From an uncultured Clostridia bacterium (lineage in GTDB: Bacteria > Bacillota > Peptococcia > Peptococcales > Peptococcaceae), in the NCBI GenBank assembly GCA_944391625.1, contig CALXUG010000017.1, positions 1 through 51,903 of the forward strand: a stretch of 51,903 bases of DNA, read 5' to 3'. Positions 4,623 through 30,924 of this stretch are shown piece by piece (position 1 is the first letter of the stretch; every line of letters begins with the position of its first letter). The position numbers and the translations under genes were made by a program. Under the pieces are notes generated by a model. That model searched no databases and had not been told where the DNA came from. It worked only from the letters and a program-made list of their open reading frames with translations.

Positions 4623-4628
4623 AGAGTT

Positions 4629-4698
4629 AGTTATACGACTGACGGAAGTGGAATCAACCACATGAAGTATAATGTCTGTTTGCCGACCGTCTGGGCAC
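4629..4698 (+). promoter_or_regulatory. ZTP (pfl) riboswitch aptamer
   Basis: P1 is TTATAC (4631-4636) paired with GTATAA (4667-4672). It encloses the conserved GACTGACGG and a GTGG...CCAC hairpin. The 3' domain carries GCCGACCGTCTGGGCA, the hallmark CCGCCUGGGC element with a C-to-U change. That change is matched in the pseudoknot partner: GACGG (4641-4645) with CCGTC (4687-4691). ZTP riboswitches sense ZTP/ZMP, which accumulate when 10-formyl-THF is short. The gene downstream encodes the enzyme that consumes ZMP. Confidence 0.88.
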
Positions 4699-4725
4699 TA
4701 TGTGTCCGGACGTGTCGGTTTTTTT
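4683..4725 (+). terminator. riboswitch-controlled intrinsic terminator
   Basis: CCGAC-CGTCTGGGCAC pairs with GTGTCCGGACG-T-GTCGG (about 16 bp, one bulge), followed by seven Us. The 5' arm contains the aptamer's CCGTCTGGGC, so ligand binding and termination exclude each other. This is the ON-switch logic of ZTP riboswitches. Confidence 0.88.
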
Positions 4726-6664: not shown

Positions 6665-6968
6665 CAATGATAGAAACAAACAGATATAAGCAACAGAGAA
6701 TCGCTGTATCAAGGCATCTACTCCTTGTGCGGCGGTTTTTCTTTTGCGGATGTTGCCGTCCGTAGCCGATAAGTGCATTGGTGCATAGCGATATAAATTG
6801 TGATATGGATTGCAATGGGGCGCGGCGTTATGAAAATAAAATTGGCTGGGCAAAGGGCAGAGCTGCATAATTTTTGCAGAAGTTTTGAGTGAAAGATTAT
6901 TTTTCTGCAAAGTGGTACATACTATAGAAAAAGATGGATTAGCATCTATATGTATGGAGGTGGCTGCT
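6665..6968. other. intergenic region without a recognised element
   Basis: About 300 bp between the prenyltransferase and yaaL. I see no convincing ORF, RNA gene or clear terminator. Confidence 0.5.
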
Positions 6969-7163
6969 GTGGATTTGGCTCAGGAGTTGGAGGAAGCAAA
7001 ATGTCAATGGCATAATATGCAGAGTGTGTATAACGAGGTGAGCGACCCTGCCTTGATTGATGCGGTTATTTATCAGGTGATGGCTGCAGAACGGCGATAT
7101 GAATATTTGCTGCGGCTGGCAAAAGCGGAATCGTTAAGCTGTGAAAATATTCCAGTTCGTTGA
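6969..7163 (+). CDS. yaaL: YaaL/DUF2508 family small protein
   Basis: 64 residues from the GTG at 6969, chosen because TATGGAGGTGG lies 6-8 nt upstream; longer in-frame starts have no ribosome binding site. The sequence begins MDLAQELEEAKCQWHNMQ and continues VSDPALIDAVIYQVMAAERRY, matching the DUF2508 pattern (helical, acidic, D-P-x-L-I-D followed by A-A-E-x-R-Y-x-Y-L-L). Function is unknown. In Bacillus the gene lies between recR and bofA. Here bofA follows directly, but recR is absent from this spot. The conserved pairing with bofA supports both calls. Confidence 0.8.
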   Translation: MDLAQELEEAKCQWHNMQSVYNEVSDPALIDAVIYQVMAAERRYEYLLRLAKAESLSCENIPVR

Positions 7164-7223: not shown

Positions 7224-7496
7224 ATGCCGCATATCCAGATGGATACTGTTTTATTTGTATTTTTTGCAATTGCTTTGATTTTTTTAATTGCCCGTTTGGC
7301 TACAGCGCCAATGCAGGTGATGGTGAAGCTGTTGATGAATTCCATGTTATCGGTGGTCATTTTATGTTTTATCAGCATGATTGGTGAGTATTGGGGTATT
7401 CATCTGCCTATTAATCCGGTAACGGTGTTGTTGATTGCAATTTTGGGTTTGCCCGGGTTGTTGTTGATCTCTGTATTGTATTTTCTTTTGGTCTGA
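7224..7496 (+). CDS. bofA: BofA-family membrane protein (pro-sigma-K processing inhibitor family)
   Basis: 90 residues, close to the 87 of B. subtilis BofA. There are two or three hydrophobic segments (about 8-27, 35-54 and 68-88). The C-terminal half has the family pattern ending in a P-G-L/I-x-L-L hydrophobic helix (LGLPGLLLISVLYF). In spore formers BofA holds the SpoIVFB protease inactive in the outer forespore membrane. The family also occurs in non-sporulating Firmicutes, so sporulation cannot be concluded. The start has a GGGGGGA stretch upstream. It lies 60 bp after yaaL in the same orientation, ending at a bidirectional terminator. Confidence 0.82.
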   Translation: MPHIQMDTVLFVFFAIALIFLIARLATAPMQVMVKLLMNSMLSVVILCFISMIGEYWGIHLPINPVTVLLIAILGLPGLLLISVLYFLLV

Positions 7497-7722: not shown

Positions 7723-8097
7723 TTATTTGAACATGCCTTTTAATTTGCCCAACAGCCCTTTCTTTGGATTAATCATATCATTGATTTCTTTTTTGAAGAT
7801 AGACTCGCTGATTGCCCCCGGCAGTGACTCTTTCATTTCGCCATGCAGGAAGAATACAGACTGGGGAACGCCCATCAGTTGCAAAGATTTGAAAGTAGCC
7901 AGGCCATCCGGTGTTTTTACATCCATACCGTAGAAATTAACTTGGCCTTCAAACTGAGCAGCCATTTTTTCGGCTACAGGTGCCAGTTGTTTACAAACAG
8001 AACAGGTTTCTTTAGAAAATACGATAATGCAGGTTTCTTTATTTTCTTTGGTAATTTGCTCAAACTGTTCTGCAGTAATCTGAGGTAGATTCATCAT
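7723..8097 (-). CDS. thioredoxin-fold protein with CSVC active site
   Basis: 124 residues. A thioredoxin fold is indicated by the redox motif C-S-V-C near residue 32 (SKETCSVCKQLAP), the following helix, a central strand (VNFYGMDV) and the cis-Pro loop (MGVPQSVFF). The CxxC spacing fits a thiol-disulfide oxidoreductase, although the dipeptide is not the GP of classical thioredoxin. There is no signal peptide, so it acts in the cytoplasm. The C-terminus is basic (KKGLLGKLKGMFK). The start has GGAGTG upstream. A strong promoter lies at 8140-8168, and no partner reductase is adjacent. Confidence 0.82.
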   Translation of the reverse strand: MMNLPQITAEQFEQITKENKETCIIVFSKETCSVCKQLAPVAEKMAAQFEGQVNFYGMDVKTPDGLATFKSLQLMGVPQSVFFLHGEMKESLPGAISESIFKKEINDMINPKKGLLGKLKGMFK

Positions 8098-8139
8098 ACT
8101 TAATCACTCCAATATCCAAATTTTCATTATGATAATTAT

Positions 8140-8168
8140 ATTGTACTTGAAATTAGGGCATTTGACAA
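8140..8168 (-). promoter_or_regulatory. promoter of the thioredoxin-like gene
   Basis: On the minus strand: TTGTCA (8168-8163), 17-nt spacer, TACAAT (8145-8140). Confidence 0.75.
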
Positions 8169-8259
8169 ATACCTTTTTCATATTTTGCAAAAAAATTCAT
8201 AACAAGTAATTTTGTAAGTAAAAAATAGATAAACGTCGGCTTTTGATTCAAAAAATAAG

Positions 8260-8363
8260 TTTTCCACATTTATTCACAGATTTTGTTGAGAAATCCACTA
8301 TACTATACACAGAAAAAACCGCCAATTAATGGGTTATGCACAGAGTTATCCACACTATCCACA
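8260..8363 (+). other. cluster of DnaA boxes; candidate replication origin or DnaA-binding locus
   Basis: Six DnaA-box-like 9-mers lie on one strand within about 105 bp: TTTTCCACA (8260), TTATTCACA (8270), CTATACACA (8303), TTATGCACA (8334), a perfect TTATCCACA (8346) and CTATCCACA (8355). Neighbouring boxes sit 9-12 nt apart, near one helical turn. The cluster lies in a gene-free stretch (8169-8551) flanked by very AT-rich DNA that could melt, notably around 8370-8420. A perfect parS site lies 2.3 kb away, as is usual near oriC. dnaA and dnaN are not in the window. Most left-hand genes point toward the cluster, which argues against a simple origin. DnaA titration or gene regulation remain possible. 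Confidence 0.65.
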
Positions 8364-8551
8364 GAAATCAAGGATAAATAATACATATTTTTATATTTGA
8401 TTGTATATCTTTTTCTGATGGAATTATGTTTTTCCGGAAAGAACAAACCGCGTTTTTATCGAAGTATATTTTATATTGTAGAAAAAGCGCCAATGTATAA
8501 AATAAAATGGACAGTATTTAAAAATACAAAAACAAAGGATTGATTGACCGG

Positions 8552-8581
8552 TTGCGGCGCAGAAAAGAACAATGTTATAAT
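8552..8581 (+). promoter_or_regulatory. probable promoter of yigZ
   Basis: TTGCGG (8552-8557), 18-nt spacer, TATAAT (8576-8581). Confidence 0.45.
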
Positions 8582-8688
8582 AAATAGATTCACAGTGGAA
8601 TTACATGATATGAAGGCCGATGGTATATAAGACGCAGCTGAAAGCAATGTTACATAAAAGTTGGATTAAATGATTGATGGAGGAAATT

Positions 8689-9318
8689 ATGCTGAAAACA
8701 TATCGCACTATAAAAGAGTTTGGTCAGGATGAAATTGTAATTGAAAAGTCGACATTTATTGGTTATGCCAAGCCGGTAGCTGATGAGGACGAGGCGCTGG
8801 CATTTATTCAGGAGATAAAAAAGAAGCACCGGGATGCCACCCATAATGTGCCGGCCTATGTGCTGGGCGAGCACAACGATATCCAGCGCTGTAACGATGA
8901 CGGCGAGCCGTCGGGCACTGCCGGTGTGCCTGTGCTGGAAGTGCTGAAAAAAGAAGATGTGCGCAATGTGGCAGTGGTGGTGACTCGTTATTTTGGAGGC
9001 ATTAAGCTGGGTACCGGCGGACTGGTGCGAGCCTATACCAAAGGCGCTAAAATTGCGTTAGAAGCCGCAGGACTTATCACTAAGGTATTATATCAGGTGA
9101 TTGTGGTTTCGGTTGATTACACCATGCTAGGCGCGTTACAGAACCAGCTGCGGTTAAAGCAGTATGATACCAAGGATATTGTTTATGATGAAATGGTACA
9201 TTTGCATGTATGGGTAGCAGAGGATGATGTAGCTGGTTTTAAAGCGCAGATGGTAGAATGGACCAATGGACGGGCTGTGATAGAGGATGGGGAAGTCAGC
9301 TACAGAATTATGGAATAA
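8689..9318 (+). CDS. yigZ: YigZ/IMPACT family protein
   Basis: 209 residues. The N-terminal UPF0029/IMPACT domain has the signature around DGEPSGTAGVPVLEVL and the following VVVTRYFGGIKLGTGGLVRAY. The C-terminal ferredoxin-like domain (about 135-205) matches the DUF1949 half of YigZ. Homologues bind nucleic acids or ribosomal factors, or act as proline dipeptidase-like proteins; the cellular role is unsettled. The ATG at 8689 is chosen because TGGAGGAAATT precedes it. An in-frame ATG at 8674 overlaps that site. The gene stands alone in a housekeeping stretch. Confidence 0.88.
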   Translation: MLKTYRTIKEFGQDEIVIEKSTFIGYAKPVADEDEALAFIQEIKKKHRDATHNVPAYVLGEHNDIQRCNDDGEPSGTAGVPVLEVLKKEDVRNVAVVVTRYFGGIKLGTGGLVRAYTKGAKIALEAAGLITKVLYQVIVVSVDYTMLGALQNQLRLKQYDTKDIVYDEMVHLHVWVAEDDVAGFKAQMVEWTNGRAVIEDGEVSYRIME

Positions 9319-9539: not shown

Positions 9540-10376
9540 CTAACCCTGCACCAGCTTCATAAATTCGCTCTTACTCATATTGGCTTCCTTAGCTGCCTCA
9601 TCATATGTCAACAACTTCTTTTTTGCCAATGAAACCAGCGTTTCCAGTGTACCGGCGGTTTTTCCTTCTTTTCTGCCTTCAATCAAGCCCTCAGCCTTTT
9701 GTTTCTGTCCATATTCCTCTACCAGCTTACACATAGACTCATCTCCCTTCACATTGCCTTTCTCCGCTTGCAATTCCTTCGCCAATGCCGGGAACTTGGG
9801 ATTGGTTACTACCGGCTCTAAAAAGCACTGCATCAGTTCGGCAATTTCACTGCCGTCGTTATACTTGGTATTGACATAAATCTCCCGCAATCCGTCTAAT
9901 ACTGCACGGCCTGTTTCTTCTACCATATTTCGTACATGATATACTGTTCGCCCTTCATCAAAGGGGTCAAATTCTGAGATGTATACTACCACTAAATCGT
10001 CCACTTGTTCAAACTGTTCACCCGGATCTACCACATTGGCTGTAATGCAGGCGGCATGATACCGCACTCGCCGAAAGTGATCATCGCTGTCGCTTCGCTG
10101 CACCTCCACATTGCAGTAGCTGCCATTGCCCAATTTGCAATAGGCGTCCAGCACCACCGAGCGTCCCCGCAAGTTTTGAATGCTGTCCTGCGGAATAACT
10201 TCCACTACTGTTATTTTATCATCTTCTAATATGACGCGCAAGATTTCTTCCACAAAGGCAATATTTTCACATAGTTTGCGGAACATGATATCGTCAATGG
10301 CCCGCAGCTGGGCTACGATGGATTCTACTTCAAGCCGATGCCGTCTTTCTTCGTTTTCTTTGCTCTCATCGTTCAT
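9540..10376 (-). CDS. Rpn family PD-(D/E)XK nuclease / putative transposase
   Basis: 278 residues. The N-terminal core is that of Rpn/PDDEXK_2 proteins: DDIMFRKLCEN helix, SVVLDAYCKLGNGSYCNVEVQ (catalytic Asp, then E-V-Q as the E-x-K/Q element), the RVRYHAACI helix and the VVVYISEFDPF strand. Family proteins are endonucleases that promote RecA-independent recombination and often occur in several copies per genome. The C-terminal tail has a charged segment (EGLIEGRKEGKTAGTLETL) and an HTH-like end (LTYDEAAKEANMSKSEFMKLV). The tail is nearly identical to the protein cut by the right window end. The ATG has AAAGGAAA upstream. Sequence after the stop is also conserved with the other copy, so the pair arose by duplication of a larger unit. 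Confidence 0.85.
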   Translation of the reverse strand: MNDESKENEERRHRLEVESIVAQLRAIDDIMFRKLCENIAFVEEILRVILEDDKITVVEVIPQDSIQNLRGRSVVLDAYCKLGNGSYCNVEVQRSDSDDHFRRVRYHAACITANVVDPGEQFEQVDDLVVVYISEFDPFDEGRTVYHVRNMVEETGRAVLDGLREIYVNTKYNDGSEIAELMQCFLEPVVTNPKFPALAKELQAEKGNVKGDESMCKLVEEYGQKQKAEGLIEGRKEGKTAGTLETLVSLAKKKLLTYDEAAKEANMSKSEFMKLVQG

Positions 10377-28559: not shown

Positions 28560-28629
28560 CGCTGATATATGCAGCAGAGAAAATTGAGGCTGACTTGACG
28601 AATAATAGGCTTTGTGATAGCATATAATT

Positions 28630-28746
28630 AACAAAAGAGAGCAACCTTGATGTGTTGGTAGCACATCAGCAAACGGTTTACTCTCCCAGATGGGGTTGAT
28701 ACCCTGCCTATCTAGTTGAGTGGATAAGGCGGGGTATCTTTTTTAT
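28630..28746 (+). ncRNA. antitoxin RNA 1
   Basis: Promoter TTGACG (28595-28600), 17 nt, TGA-TAGCAT (28618-28623, extended -10); an overlapping TATAAT lies at 28623-28628. The 5' stem is GAGAGCAACC with GGTTTACTCTC (28675-28685), enclosing TGATGTG/CACATCA. The terminator GATACCC...GGGTATC plus U6 ends near 28746. GGTTTACTCTC is complementary, with one extra base, to the start of the toxin mRNA (GAGAGTAACC). Confidence 0.75.
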
Positions 28747-28764
28747 AAAAGAATAATTACCTTA

Positions 28765-28845
28765 CTACTTTTTACGCAGCAAGGCGATAACAGCGACAAG
28801 TAAAGTCAATGTGGCAATGACTGCCATGTAGAATTCATATGTCAT
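28765..28845 (-). CDS. type I toxin-like hydrophobic peptide 1 (holin-like toxin family)
   Basis: 26 residues: MTYEFYMAVIATLTL, a hydrophobic helix, then ending LLRKK. It is one membrane span with a basic C-terminus, as in TxpA/Fst/'putative holin-like toxin' peptides (family assignment inferred). The promoter is TTTACA-18-TAAAAT just upstream of 28900. The ribosome binding site GGGAGG lies in a CCTCCC-TTGA-AGGGAGG hairpin, so translation would be blocked unless the leader refolds. The mRNA 5' end (GAGAGTAACC; GGTAGGCGG) is complementary to patches in the convergent antitoxin RNA. The gene is too short for ordinary gene callers. Confidence 0.75.
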   Translation of the reverse strand: MTYEFYMAVIATLTLLVAVIALLRKK

Positions 28846-29013
28846 AGTGTTATCACCTCCCTTCAAGGGAGGAAAACCGCCTACCGTTCTGGTTACTCTC
28901 TGGATTGTATTTTAACATAGAAGCATATGTTCTGTAAATGGAATTTACTATTTTTTACAATTTGGTTGCTATGACTAACTTGACGGATAACAGGCTTTGT
29001 GATAGCATATAAC

Positions 29014-29126
29014 TAATAAAAGAGAGCAACCTTGATGCATTGGCGTGCATCAGTAAACGGTTTACTCTCCCAGATTGAGTCGATGACCCGTCTATCTGTT
29101 GAGGGATGAGGCGGGTTGTCTTTTTT
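29014..29126 (+). ncRNA. antitoxin RNA 2
   Basis: Promoter TTGACG (28980-28985), 17 nt, TAGCAT (29003-29008). The inner stem is TGATGCA/TGCATCA, a paired change from copy 1 (TGATGTG/CACATCA). Terminator 29082-29126 (ACCCGTCT/AGGCGGGT, then U6). Confidence 0.75.
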
Positions 29127-29146
29127 GTAAAAGAATAATTACCTTA

Positions 29147-29227
29147 CTACTTTTTACGCAGCAAGGCGATAACAGCGACAAGTAAAGTCAGTGTGGCAAT
29201 GGCTGCCATGTAGAATTCATATGTCAT
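29147..29227 (-). CDS. type I toxin-like hydrophobic peptide 2
   Basis: 26 residues, identical to peptide 1 except Ala instead of Val at position 9. It has the same SD-sequestering hairpin and the same upstream promoter layout on the minus strand. It is convergent with antitoxin RNA 2, with the stop 21 bp from that RNA's terminator. Confidence 0.75.
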   Translation of the reverse strand: MTYEFYMAAIATLTLLVAVIALLRKK

Positions 29228-29395
29228 AGTGTTATCACCTCCCTTCAAGGGAGGAAAACCGCCTACCGTTATGGTTACTCTCTGGATTGTATTTTAACAT
29301 GGAATCGTATGTTCTGTAAATAGAATTTACTATTTTTTACAATTTGGTTGCTATGGCCGACTTGACGGATAATAGGCTTTGTGATAGCATATAAC

Positions 29396-29511
29396 TAACA
29401 AAAGAGAGCAACCTTGATGCATTGGCGTGCATCAGTAAACGGTTTACTCTCCCAAATGTAGACAGACTACTCGCCTATCTTCTCAGGGATAAAGGCGGGT
29501 AGTCATTTTTT
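29396..29511 (+). ncRNA. antitoxin RNA 3
   Basis: Promoter TTGACG (29362-29367), 17 nt, TAGCAT (29385-29390). Inner stem TGATGCA/TGCATCA. Terminator GACTACTCGCCT/AGGCGGGTAGTC (29465-29511), a different stem from its neighbours but with full pairing kept. Confidence 0.75.
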
Positions 29512-29530
29512 ATGACGTTATATAACCTTG

Positions 29531-29608
29531 TTACTTGCGTAGCAAGGCGATAACAGCGACAAGTAAAGTCAATGTGGCAATGGTTGCCATGTAGAATTCA
29601 TATGTCAT
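29531..29608 (-). CDS. type I toxin-like hydrophobic peptide 3
   Basis: 25 residues: one terminal Lys shorter than the others (ends LLRK), with Thr at position 9. The SD hairpin loop differs (CCTCCC-CTAA-GGGAGG), but the stem is intact. The spacing between SD and ATG is 3 nt shorter than in the other copies. Confidence 0.75.
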   Translation of the reverse strand: MTYEFYMATIATLTLLVAVIALLRK

Positions 29609-29773
29609 AGTTACCACCTCCCTTAGGGGAGGAAAACCGCCTACCGTTATGGTTACTCTCTGGATTGTATTTTAACATGGAATCGTATGTTCTGTAAATA
29701 AAATTTACTATTTTTTACAATTTGCTTACTAAGGCTGACTTGACGAATAATAGGCTTTGTGATAGCATATAAC

Positions 29774-29887
29774 TAACAAAAGAGAGCAACCTTGATGTGT
29801 TGGTAGCACATCAGCAAACGGTTTACTCTCCCAAACTGAATAAGCTAACCGCCTATTCGGCGAAGGAATGGGGCGGTTAGTTTTTTT
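29774..29887 (+). ncRNA. antitoxin RNA 4
   Basis: Promoter TTGACG (29740-29745), 17 nt, TAGCAT (29763-29768). Inner stem TGATGTG/CACATCA. Terminator CTAACCGCC/GGGCGGTTAG plus U7 (29845-29887). Confidence 0.75.
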
Positions 29888-29902
29888 ATTACAAAAACCT
29901 TA

Positions 29903-29983
29903 CTACTTTTTACGCAGCAAGGCGATAACAGCGACAAGTAAAGTCAGTGTGGCAATAATGGCCATGTAGAATTCATATGTCAT
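29903..29983 (-). CDS. type I toxin-like hydrophobic peptide 4
   Basis: 26 residues, Ile at position 9. Identical at nucleotide level to peptide 5 through the coding region and leader. SD hairpin CCTCCC-CTAA-GGGAGG. Confidence 0.75.
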   Translation of the reverse strand: MTYEFYMAIIATLTLLVAVIALLRKK

Positions 29984-30150
29984 AGTGTTATCACCTCCCT
30001 TAGGGGAGGAAAACCGCCTACCGTTCTGGTTACTCTCTGGATTGTATTTTAACATGCAAGCGTATGTTCTGTAAATAGAATTGACTGTTTTTTACAATTT
30101 GCTTACTAAGGCTGACTTGACGAATAATAGGCTTTGTGATAGCATATAAC

Positions 30151-30264
30151 TAACAAAAGAGAGCAACCTTGATGTGTTGGTAGCACATCAGCAAACGGTT
30201 TACTCTCCCAAACTGAATAAGCTAACCGCCTATTCGGCGAAGGAATGGGGCGGTTAGTTTTTTT
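30151..30264 (+). ncRNA. antitoxin RNA 5
   Basis: Same sequence as antitoxin RNA 4, with promoter TTGACG at 30117-30122 and TAGCAT at 30140-30145. Terminator 30222-30264. Confidence 0.75.
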
Positions 30265-30279
30265 ATTACAAAAACCTTA

Positions 30280-30360
30280 CTACTTTTTACGCAGCAAGGC
30301 GATAACAGCGACAAGTAAAGTCAGTGTGGCAATAATGGCCATGTAGAATTCATATGTCAT
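30280..30360 (-). CDS. type I toxin-like hydrophobic peptide 5
   Basis: 26 residues, identical to peptide 4. The two units differ only in their far-upstream toxin promoter region. Confidence 0.75.
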   Translation of the reverse strand: MTYEFYMAIIATLTLLVAVIALLRKK

Positions 30361-30527
30361 AGTGTTATCACCTCCCTTAGGGGAGGAAAACCGCCTACCG
30401 TTCTGGTTACTCTCTGGATTGTATTTTAACATGCAATCGTATGTTCTGTAAATAGAATTTACTATTTTTTACAATTTGGTTGCTATGACTAACTTGACGG
30501 ATAACAGGCTTTGTGATAGCATATAAC

Positions 30528-30643
30528 TAACAAAAGAGAGCAACCTTGATACATTGCAGTGTATCAGCAAACGGTTTCGCTCCCTTGTAATGTTGGCGAT
30601 AATCCGCCTCGATTTTTGGGGATCAGGGCGGGTTATCTTTTTT
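30528..30643 (+). ncRNA. antitoxin RNA 6 (divergent)
   Basis: Promoter TTGACG (30494-30499), 17 nt, TAGCAT (30517-30522). Inner stem TGATACA/TGTATCA, a third compensatory version. The 3' side of the outer stem is GGTTTCGCTC instead of GGTTTACTCTC. Terminator GATAATCCGCC/GGCGGGTTATC plus U-run (30598-30643). Confidence 0.75.
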
Positions 30644-30666
30644 AGTTAAAAGATTTTGTTACCTTA

Positions 30667-30747
30667 CTACTTTTTACGCAGCAAGGTGATAACAGCGACT
30701 AATAAAGTCAATGTGGCAATGATTGCCATGTAGAATTCATATGTCAT
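30667..30747 (-). CDS. type I toxin-like hydrophobic peptide 6 (divergent)
   Basis: 26 residues with Ile at position 9 and Thr instead of Ala near position 21 (VITLLRKK end). The mRNA 5' end reads GAGAGCAACC rather than GAGAGTAACC. The SD hairpin is CCTCCC-TTTGAG-GGGAGG. The matching divergence of RNA 6 suggests unit-specific pairing. Confidence 0.75.
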   Translation of the reverse strand: MTYEFYMAIIATLTLLVAVITLLRKK

Positions 30748-30924
30748 AGTGTTATCACCTCCCCTCAAAGGGAGGAAAACCGCCTACCGTTATGGTTGCT
30801 CTCTGAACCATATTTTAACATACAATCATATGTTCTGTAAATAGACTTAAGCAGCAGAATAAACAGAATAGAGCAACTCTTATTGATTACATGATGATTC
30901 GCTTGCCAAGACAGGCGAATTTTT

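Follow-up and report, generated by a model that had tools for sequence, protein, structure and literature searches.

Whether a compact group of DnaA boxes with no dnaA beside it marks an origin of replication or another kind of DnaA site is the question raised by the intergenic region studied here. The window, as we call the whole analysed stretch of 51,903 nucleotides, is contig C17 of the 2.97-Mb, 74-contig genome of a gut Peptococcaceae, and the region in question (8098–8691; 594 bp, 71% A+T) separates a thioredoxin-like protein gene, trx, on the minus strand (7723–8097; Pfam PF00085, 8.8e-14), the divergent left neighbour, from a right neighbour of the yigZ/IMPACT family on the plus strand (8692–9318; UPF0029 + DUF1949; Pfam PF01205, 7.2e-41). 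Allowing for one mismatch, six matches to TTATNCACA begin at 8260, 8270, 8303, 8334, 8346 and 8355, all on the plus strand, and three of them (8270, 8334 and 8346) match it exactly. The outermost box, TTTTCCACA (8260–8268, one mismatch), is not conserved in relatives, and the second, TTATTCACA (8270–8278, exact), has a counterpart near its position in one congener (L080) and none in most. The conserved boxes are CTATACACA (8303–8311, array position −31), TTATGCACA (8334–8342, position 0, the first of a triplet), TTATCCACA (8346–8354, position +12, the one perfect box) and CTATCCACA (8355–8363, position +21), which abuts the perfect box; a degenerate fifth position, TAATACATA (8379–8387, plus strand), has two mismatches. 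The initial annotation had described six boxes at 8260–8363, one of them perfect and all on a single strand, and its coordinates proved exact; it had likewise rightly placed yaaL–bofA next to the cluster, as a family-model scan located yaaL (DUF2508) at 6885–7163 and bofA at 7224–7496, both on the plus strand. Its description of the spacing as short and regular needs amendment, because the steps of 10, 33, 31, 12 and 9 are not regular, yet the 31/12/9 portion stays rigid from one species to the next.

Six same-strand boxes within 104 bp of the intergenic region compare with three or fewer in 5000 dinucleotide-preserving shuffles, and shuffles of the whole window (n = 40) never gave more than three same-strand boxes, the reversed window giving two. 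The total over the window is not raised (59 boxes vs an expected mean of 70), so that the clustering, and not the number, is the significant part.

Ten species belonging to four genera (g1, g3, g5 and g6) keep the array between trx and yigZ, with aligned boxes at −31, 0, +12, +21 and about +45. The exceptions to this spacing are one species with 13 instead of 12 and the window's own copy, which is without the +45 box: at about this position a better box than the window's degenerate one is present in all nine of the remaining aligned species. Mean identity over the 10 aligned species is 93% in box columns vs 61% in the other columns. Since the spacing is fixed while the distances to the genes vary (about 121–261 bp from the array to the trx start and 64–328 bp to yigZ), selection keeps the array itself rather than a set distance from a gene. 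In a set of 80 named yigZ loci, the array was found upstream of yigZ in seven (L077–L082 and L094), all from close relatives; the remaining 73, taken irrespective of trx adjacency, lack it. At eight more yigZ loci beyond these, no trx match and no cluster was present. Further genera with the array before yigZ are represented by genomes G009 (L054) and G012 (L055), with trx again as a neighbour. In all four arrays compared in this respect (those of the window, G005, G009 and G012) the boxes read on the strand that is locally G-rich within 15 kb, as if they pointed along the movement of the fork.

The same spacing occurs at other loci across the Bacillota. Of 100 relatives' genomes, 36 contained the exact triplet pattern (0, +12, +21; at most one mismatch), compared with none for the reversed control. 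Eight of the 24 triplet loci outside the genus lie beside tsaD, which we take to be the gene called gcp in B. subtilis, three more within about 2.2 kb of it and seven at comFC/FlgN/SBP genes, the remaining six matching none of our queries. A further box upstream, at about −31, forms no part of the search pattern, though it was present, as a YCACA end, at 18 of 22 triplet loci (L157–L179 less L164, which duplicates L163; L180 left out), the other stretches of the 60 bp upstream of the triplet having YCACA ends at 0 or 1. With up to two mismatches, only 8 of 38 named genomes contained the triplet, and exact triplets are thus rare in Peptostreptococcales, Tissierellia and Bacilli, where looser arrays are picked up by R1, a sequence model built from the 10 trx–yigZ arrays, which score by construction. 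The window's whole array (8300–8392, plus strand), itself one of these training sequences, scores 76.6 bits (E = 3.3e-21). R1 matched 56 of 60 relatives (E ≤ 0.01, in a set that includes the training species); at E ≤ 0.001, it matched 35 of 38 named genomes. It thus provides a search model for candidate DnaA-control sites in most of the Bacillota genomes tried. The triplet was present in 41 of 44 R1 matches and the upstream box in 30 of those 41, counts that lean towards the model and that score as a miss one locus (L277) with a short left flank, scanned over the wrong stretch; the 18 of 22 given above is less biased.

Neighbouring genes were assigned by tblastn against a fixed list of queries for the best arrays of 54 genomes (30 of the 56 matched relatives and 24 of the 35 matched named genomes). 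Ten arrays lie at trx–yigZ, all of them R1 training sequences, nine at tsaD, three near tsaD and 26 at comFC/flagellar/SBP/hpf genes, and six had neighbours that matched no query. DnaA or DnaN was near the triplet at none of the 30 loci read and beside none of the 54 best arrays, which rules out that the phylum-wide triplet is the box pair of the dnaA–dnaN unwinding region. Arrays beside tsaD include those of five Bacillaceae genomes (L295, L304, L306, L311 and L313), two of which (L304 and L313) match the triplet poorly.

Within its own genome the window's array is the strongest of eight R1 matches, the next scoring 25.3 bits; the weaker ones (19–25 bits) are on contigs C16, C2, C34, C42, C10 and C52 and at oriC on C50, which also carries a pair of boxes spaced by 12 bp. 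The match on C10 lies between a comFC-like gene and an SBP gene, and that on C16 beside an aldehyde dehydrogenase gene, the same neighbour as that of a triplet in G003. Of the seven clusters outside oriC, three (on C34, C42 and C52) are flanked by convergent 3' ends, a setting in which a promoter would not be expected. The perfect TTATCCACA occurs 67 times genome-wide vs 23 for the reversed control. Contrary to expectation, no box cluster was found within 1.5 kb of this genome's own tsaD (L200). Besides the window's cluster, six more DnaA-box clusters outside oriC were recorded in the same genome (L188, L189, L190, L191, L192 and L193).

A conserved array lying away from the true start point of replication is most likely a brake on, or a reservoir for, DnaA, and the window site is probably an extra-origin DnaA-box cluster that would sequester the protein and restrain initiation. 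We infer that several DnaA molecules bind the head-to-tail array cooperatively, forming an oligomer, and that the array would hold DnaA, probably ATP-DnaA, away from oriC, so that initiation would be restrained or timed as it is with the DnaA-box clusters of B. subtilis. In that species eight high-affinity DnaA-binding regions were found in vitro, two in oriC and six elsewhere, including gcp/ydiF, which bound 16-fold more ATP-DnaA than ADP-DnaA at low concentration (PMC4447404); cells lacking six such clusters initiated early, a defect that a single cluster put back at various positions corrected in part (PMC5295017); and a 2024 paper describes the role of the clusters as inhibitory, through sequestration of DnaA (PMC11019786). 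Like the window array, these clusters have several boxes close together, are intergenic and lie away from dnaA/oriC. The place of gcp/ydiF equals that of the tsaD arrays of the five Bacillaceae, a likeness of gene position, and the window array has the same spacing as the arrays at that place; its own home between trx and yigZ is a different one. Because tsaD arrays lie at a verified DnaA-binding place of B. subtilis, and because of the effect of deleting such clusters, we interpret the window site as one of this type. Some points count against this reading. Recurrent neighbours (tsaD, comFC/hpf) exceed what a titration site free to lie anywhere would need, and the fifth box, kept by most relatives, has been lost from the window copy. 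Moreover, a review states that clusters of this type have no significant part in regulation in B. subtilis (PMC5295017), and about 10-fold overproduction of DnaA is reported in that species without over-initiation (PMC13220808), both of which speak against titration.

The extra-origin clusters of B. subtilis may only soak up DnaA or may also act on it, and if function depends on the 31/12/9 geometry rather than on the number of boxes, passive titration would be wrong. A broader proposal, which we offer as a tentative possibility, is that the Bacillota have a dedicated, position-independent DnaA element with a spacing code of −31, 0, +12, +21 and about +35/+45, whose home differs by lineage (tsaD/gcp, comFC–flagellar–hpf or trx–yigZ). 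On this proposal the rigid geometry would imply an active function on DnaA, for example the nucleation of an ATP-DnaA oligomer that is then inactivated, as in a counterpart of datA, and not passive titration. Clusters of DnaA boxes outside oriC are of a known kind, and it is the phylum-wide fixed spacing that may be unreported: neither a common spacing code nor a trx–yigZ home was found described in the portions of the literature compared, a comparison that left the primary papers on the B. subtilis clusters outside, and we do not claim that either is unpublished.

A mechanism similar to that of E. coli datA, in which a head-to-tail ATP-DnaA oligomer would stimulate hydrolysis of the DnaA-bound ATP, making the site an active switch instead of a passive sequestering one, is rather unlikely. 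The window array resembles datA in lying outside oriC and in its unidirectional boxes at fixed intervals, the essential boxes of datA all facing one direction (PMC5742627). The rigid spacing also exceeds the needs of simple titration, and the ATP-DnaA preference at gcp/ydiF (PMC4447404) is in keeping with such a switch. However, datA depends on an IHF site that lies between its boxes 2 and 3, and it has a minimal length of 183 bp (PMC5742627), compared with about 90 bp spanned by the array, and the interval between its boxes is longer; no homology between the two is claimed. E. coli DARS1 and DARS2 share with the window array a core of three DnaA boxes at fixed spacing, but box I of DARS is opposite to boxes II and III (PMC5742627), whereas all six window boxes are on the plus strand, which rules out an element of the DARS type.

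Local transcription control, by which DnaA would regulate trx, yigZ or both according to replication status, we consider unlikely. The array lies between divergent 5' ends and is kept there in four genera, which leaves some room for a transcriptional role, and a conserved promoter-like sequence precedes trx: the candidate TTGTCA-17-TACAAT (8140–8168, minus strand) is a consensus match only, in a region with six matches to the promoter consensus vs 4.8 expected, although its second hexamer falls within columns invariant in eight species. Against such control, 92 bp separate the candidate −35 element from the closest box upstream of it and the distances to both genes vary widely, so that occlusion of the promoter by DnaA is disfavoured; in addition, unrelated genes adjoin arrays with this spacing, convergent genes flank three further clusters of this genome, and the 73 other named yigZ loci have no array. 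Between the trx start and the candidate promoter we also observed TTATGATAATTATATTG (8127–8143), largely conserved in congeners and resembling a PerR/Fur-type palindrome.

That the array is itself a chromosomal replication origin, main or second, is highly improbable, dense DnaA boxes in AT-rich DNA notwithstanding. The initial annotation, which had proposed an origin of replication or a DnaA hub, had correctly remarked that dnaA and dnaN are missing here: dnaA was located on a different contig, C50, where DnaA boxes flank it to left and right, among genes that we take to be dnaN, recF, gyrB and gyrA in one direction and rnpA, yidC and jag in the opposite one, dnaA alone having been checked by family model. 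The GC-skew check that it had called for went against an origin, as the sign changes at dnaA on C50 (−0.087 left of the dnaA–dnaN gap, +0.224 right of dnaA, cumulative minimum at ~12.5 kb) and not at the window cluster (+0.158 on the left, +0.032 on the right). Of the annotation's two alternatives the origin fails on the position of dnaA, the skew and the DnaA-trios considered next, while the DnaA hub finds support in the significance of the clustering, in a spacing conserved among related genera and in arrays with matching spacing at further Bacillota loci, the tsaD/gcp position among them.

The basal unwinding system consists of a DnaA box, a short spacer and at least three DnaA-trios (PMC8287927), a rule that we re-implemented with our own scoring. 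The dnaA–dnaN gap on C50 has a box followed by six DnaA-trios (score 16); together with the boxes on both sides of dnaA and the skew change, this makes C50 the canonical oriC. In the window gap the best score was 9, at a box with two mismatches at 8112, outside the cluster, and no box-and-trio match was listed on the conserved boxes. The 500 bp before yigZ gave best scores of 4–7 in five of six congeners; the sixth (L077) scored 11 at a box about 390 bp from yigZ, again outside the array. The window site has DnaA boxes in common with the bipartite oriC of the Bacillota, but differs from it in lacking dnaA/dnaN, any trio array at its conserved boxes and a skew inflection. Among relatives, the skew inflection of G005 falls at dnaA rather than at the array, and in G012 the array lies within uniform positive skew (+0.106/+0.120) with no sign change; close to the array of G009 the skew does rise, from about −0.16 to +0.1, which favours an origin, though only about 6 kb lies to the right of that array. 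The flanking genes are directed toward the site. The skew, unwinding-element and gene-context tests together lead us to reject an origin at the window site. In every relative in which both were found, dnaA and yigZ are on separate contigs; eight array matches in closed or nearly closed Bacillota genomes lie about 0.18–1.06 Mb from dnaA (sizes rounded), six of them in the origin-proximal half, a sample (n = 8) too small for a trend to be read from it. As a separate observation, dnaA of G012 (contig C4, position 58300; L246, L257 and L258) has no good box-and-trio match within 1.5 kb and the GC skew of that genome changes sign about 15 kb from dnaA, so that its origin may have moved.

Chance clustering or a leftover plasmid origin has a negligible probability, since AT-rich DNA raises the odds of single boxes but none of the 5000 shuffles exceeded three, conservation of the spacing in 10 species rules out chance, and ten neighbouring ORFs scanned include no replication gene.

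Some minor features of the window and of the arrays elsewhere are recorded here. A transposase-like gene of the PD-(D/E)XK nuclease family lies near the array (9540–10376, minus strand). A ZMP/ZTP riboswitch (4625–4703, plus strand; Rfam RF01750, 54.7 bits) directly precedes or overlaps the start of an ORF of the AICARFT/IMPCHase family. At 28588–30845 a unit of 377 bp is repeated in tandem in about 5.9 copies with 87% matches and no long ORFs. Beside many clostridial arrays there is a gene of 175–190 amino acids that belongs to the ribosome hibernation factor family (S30AE) in all seven proteins scanned; arrays near an S30AE gene are those at L288, L289, L291, L296, L297, L299–L303, L305, L307–L310, L312 and L314–L317, and the recurrence of this neighbour suggests a possible link between DnaA and hibernation.
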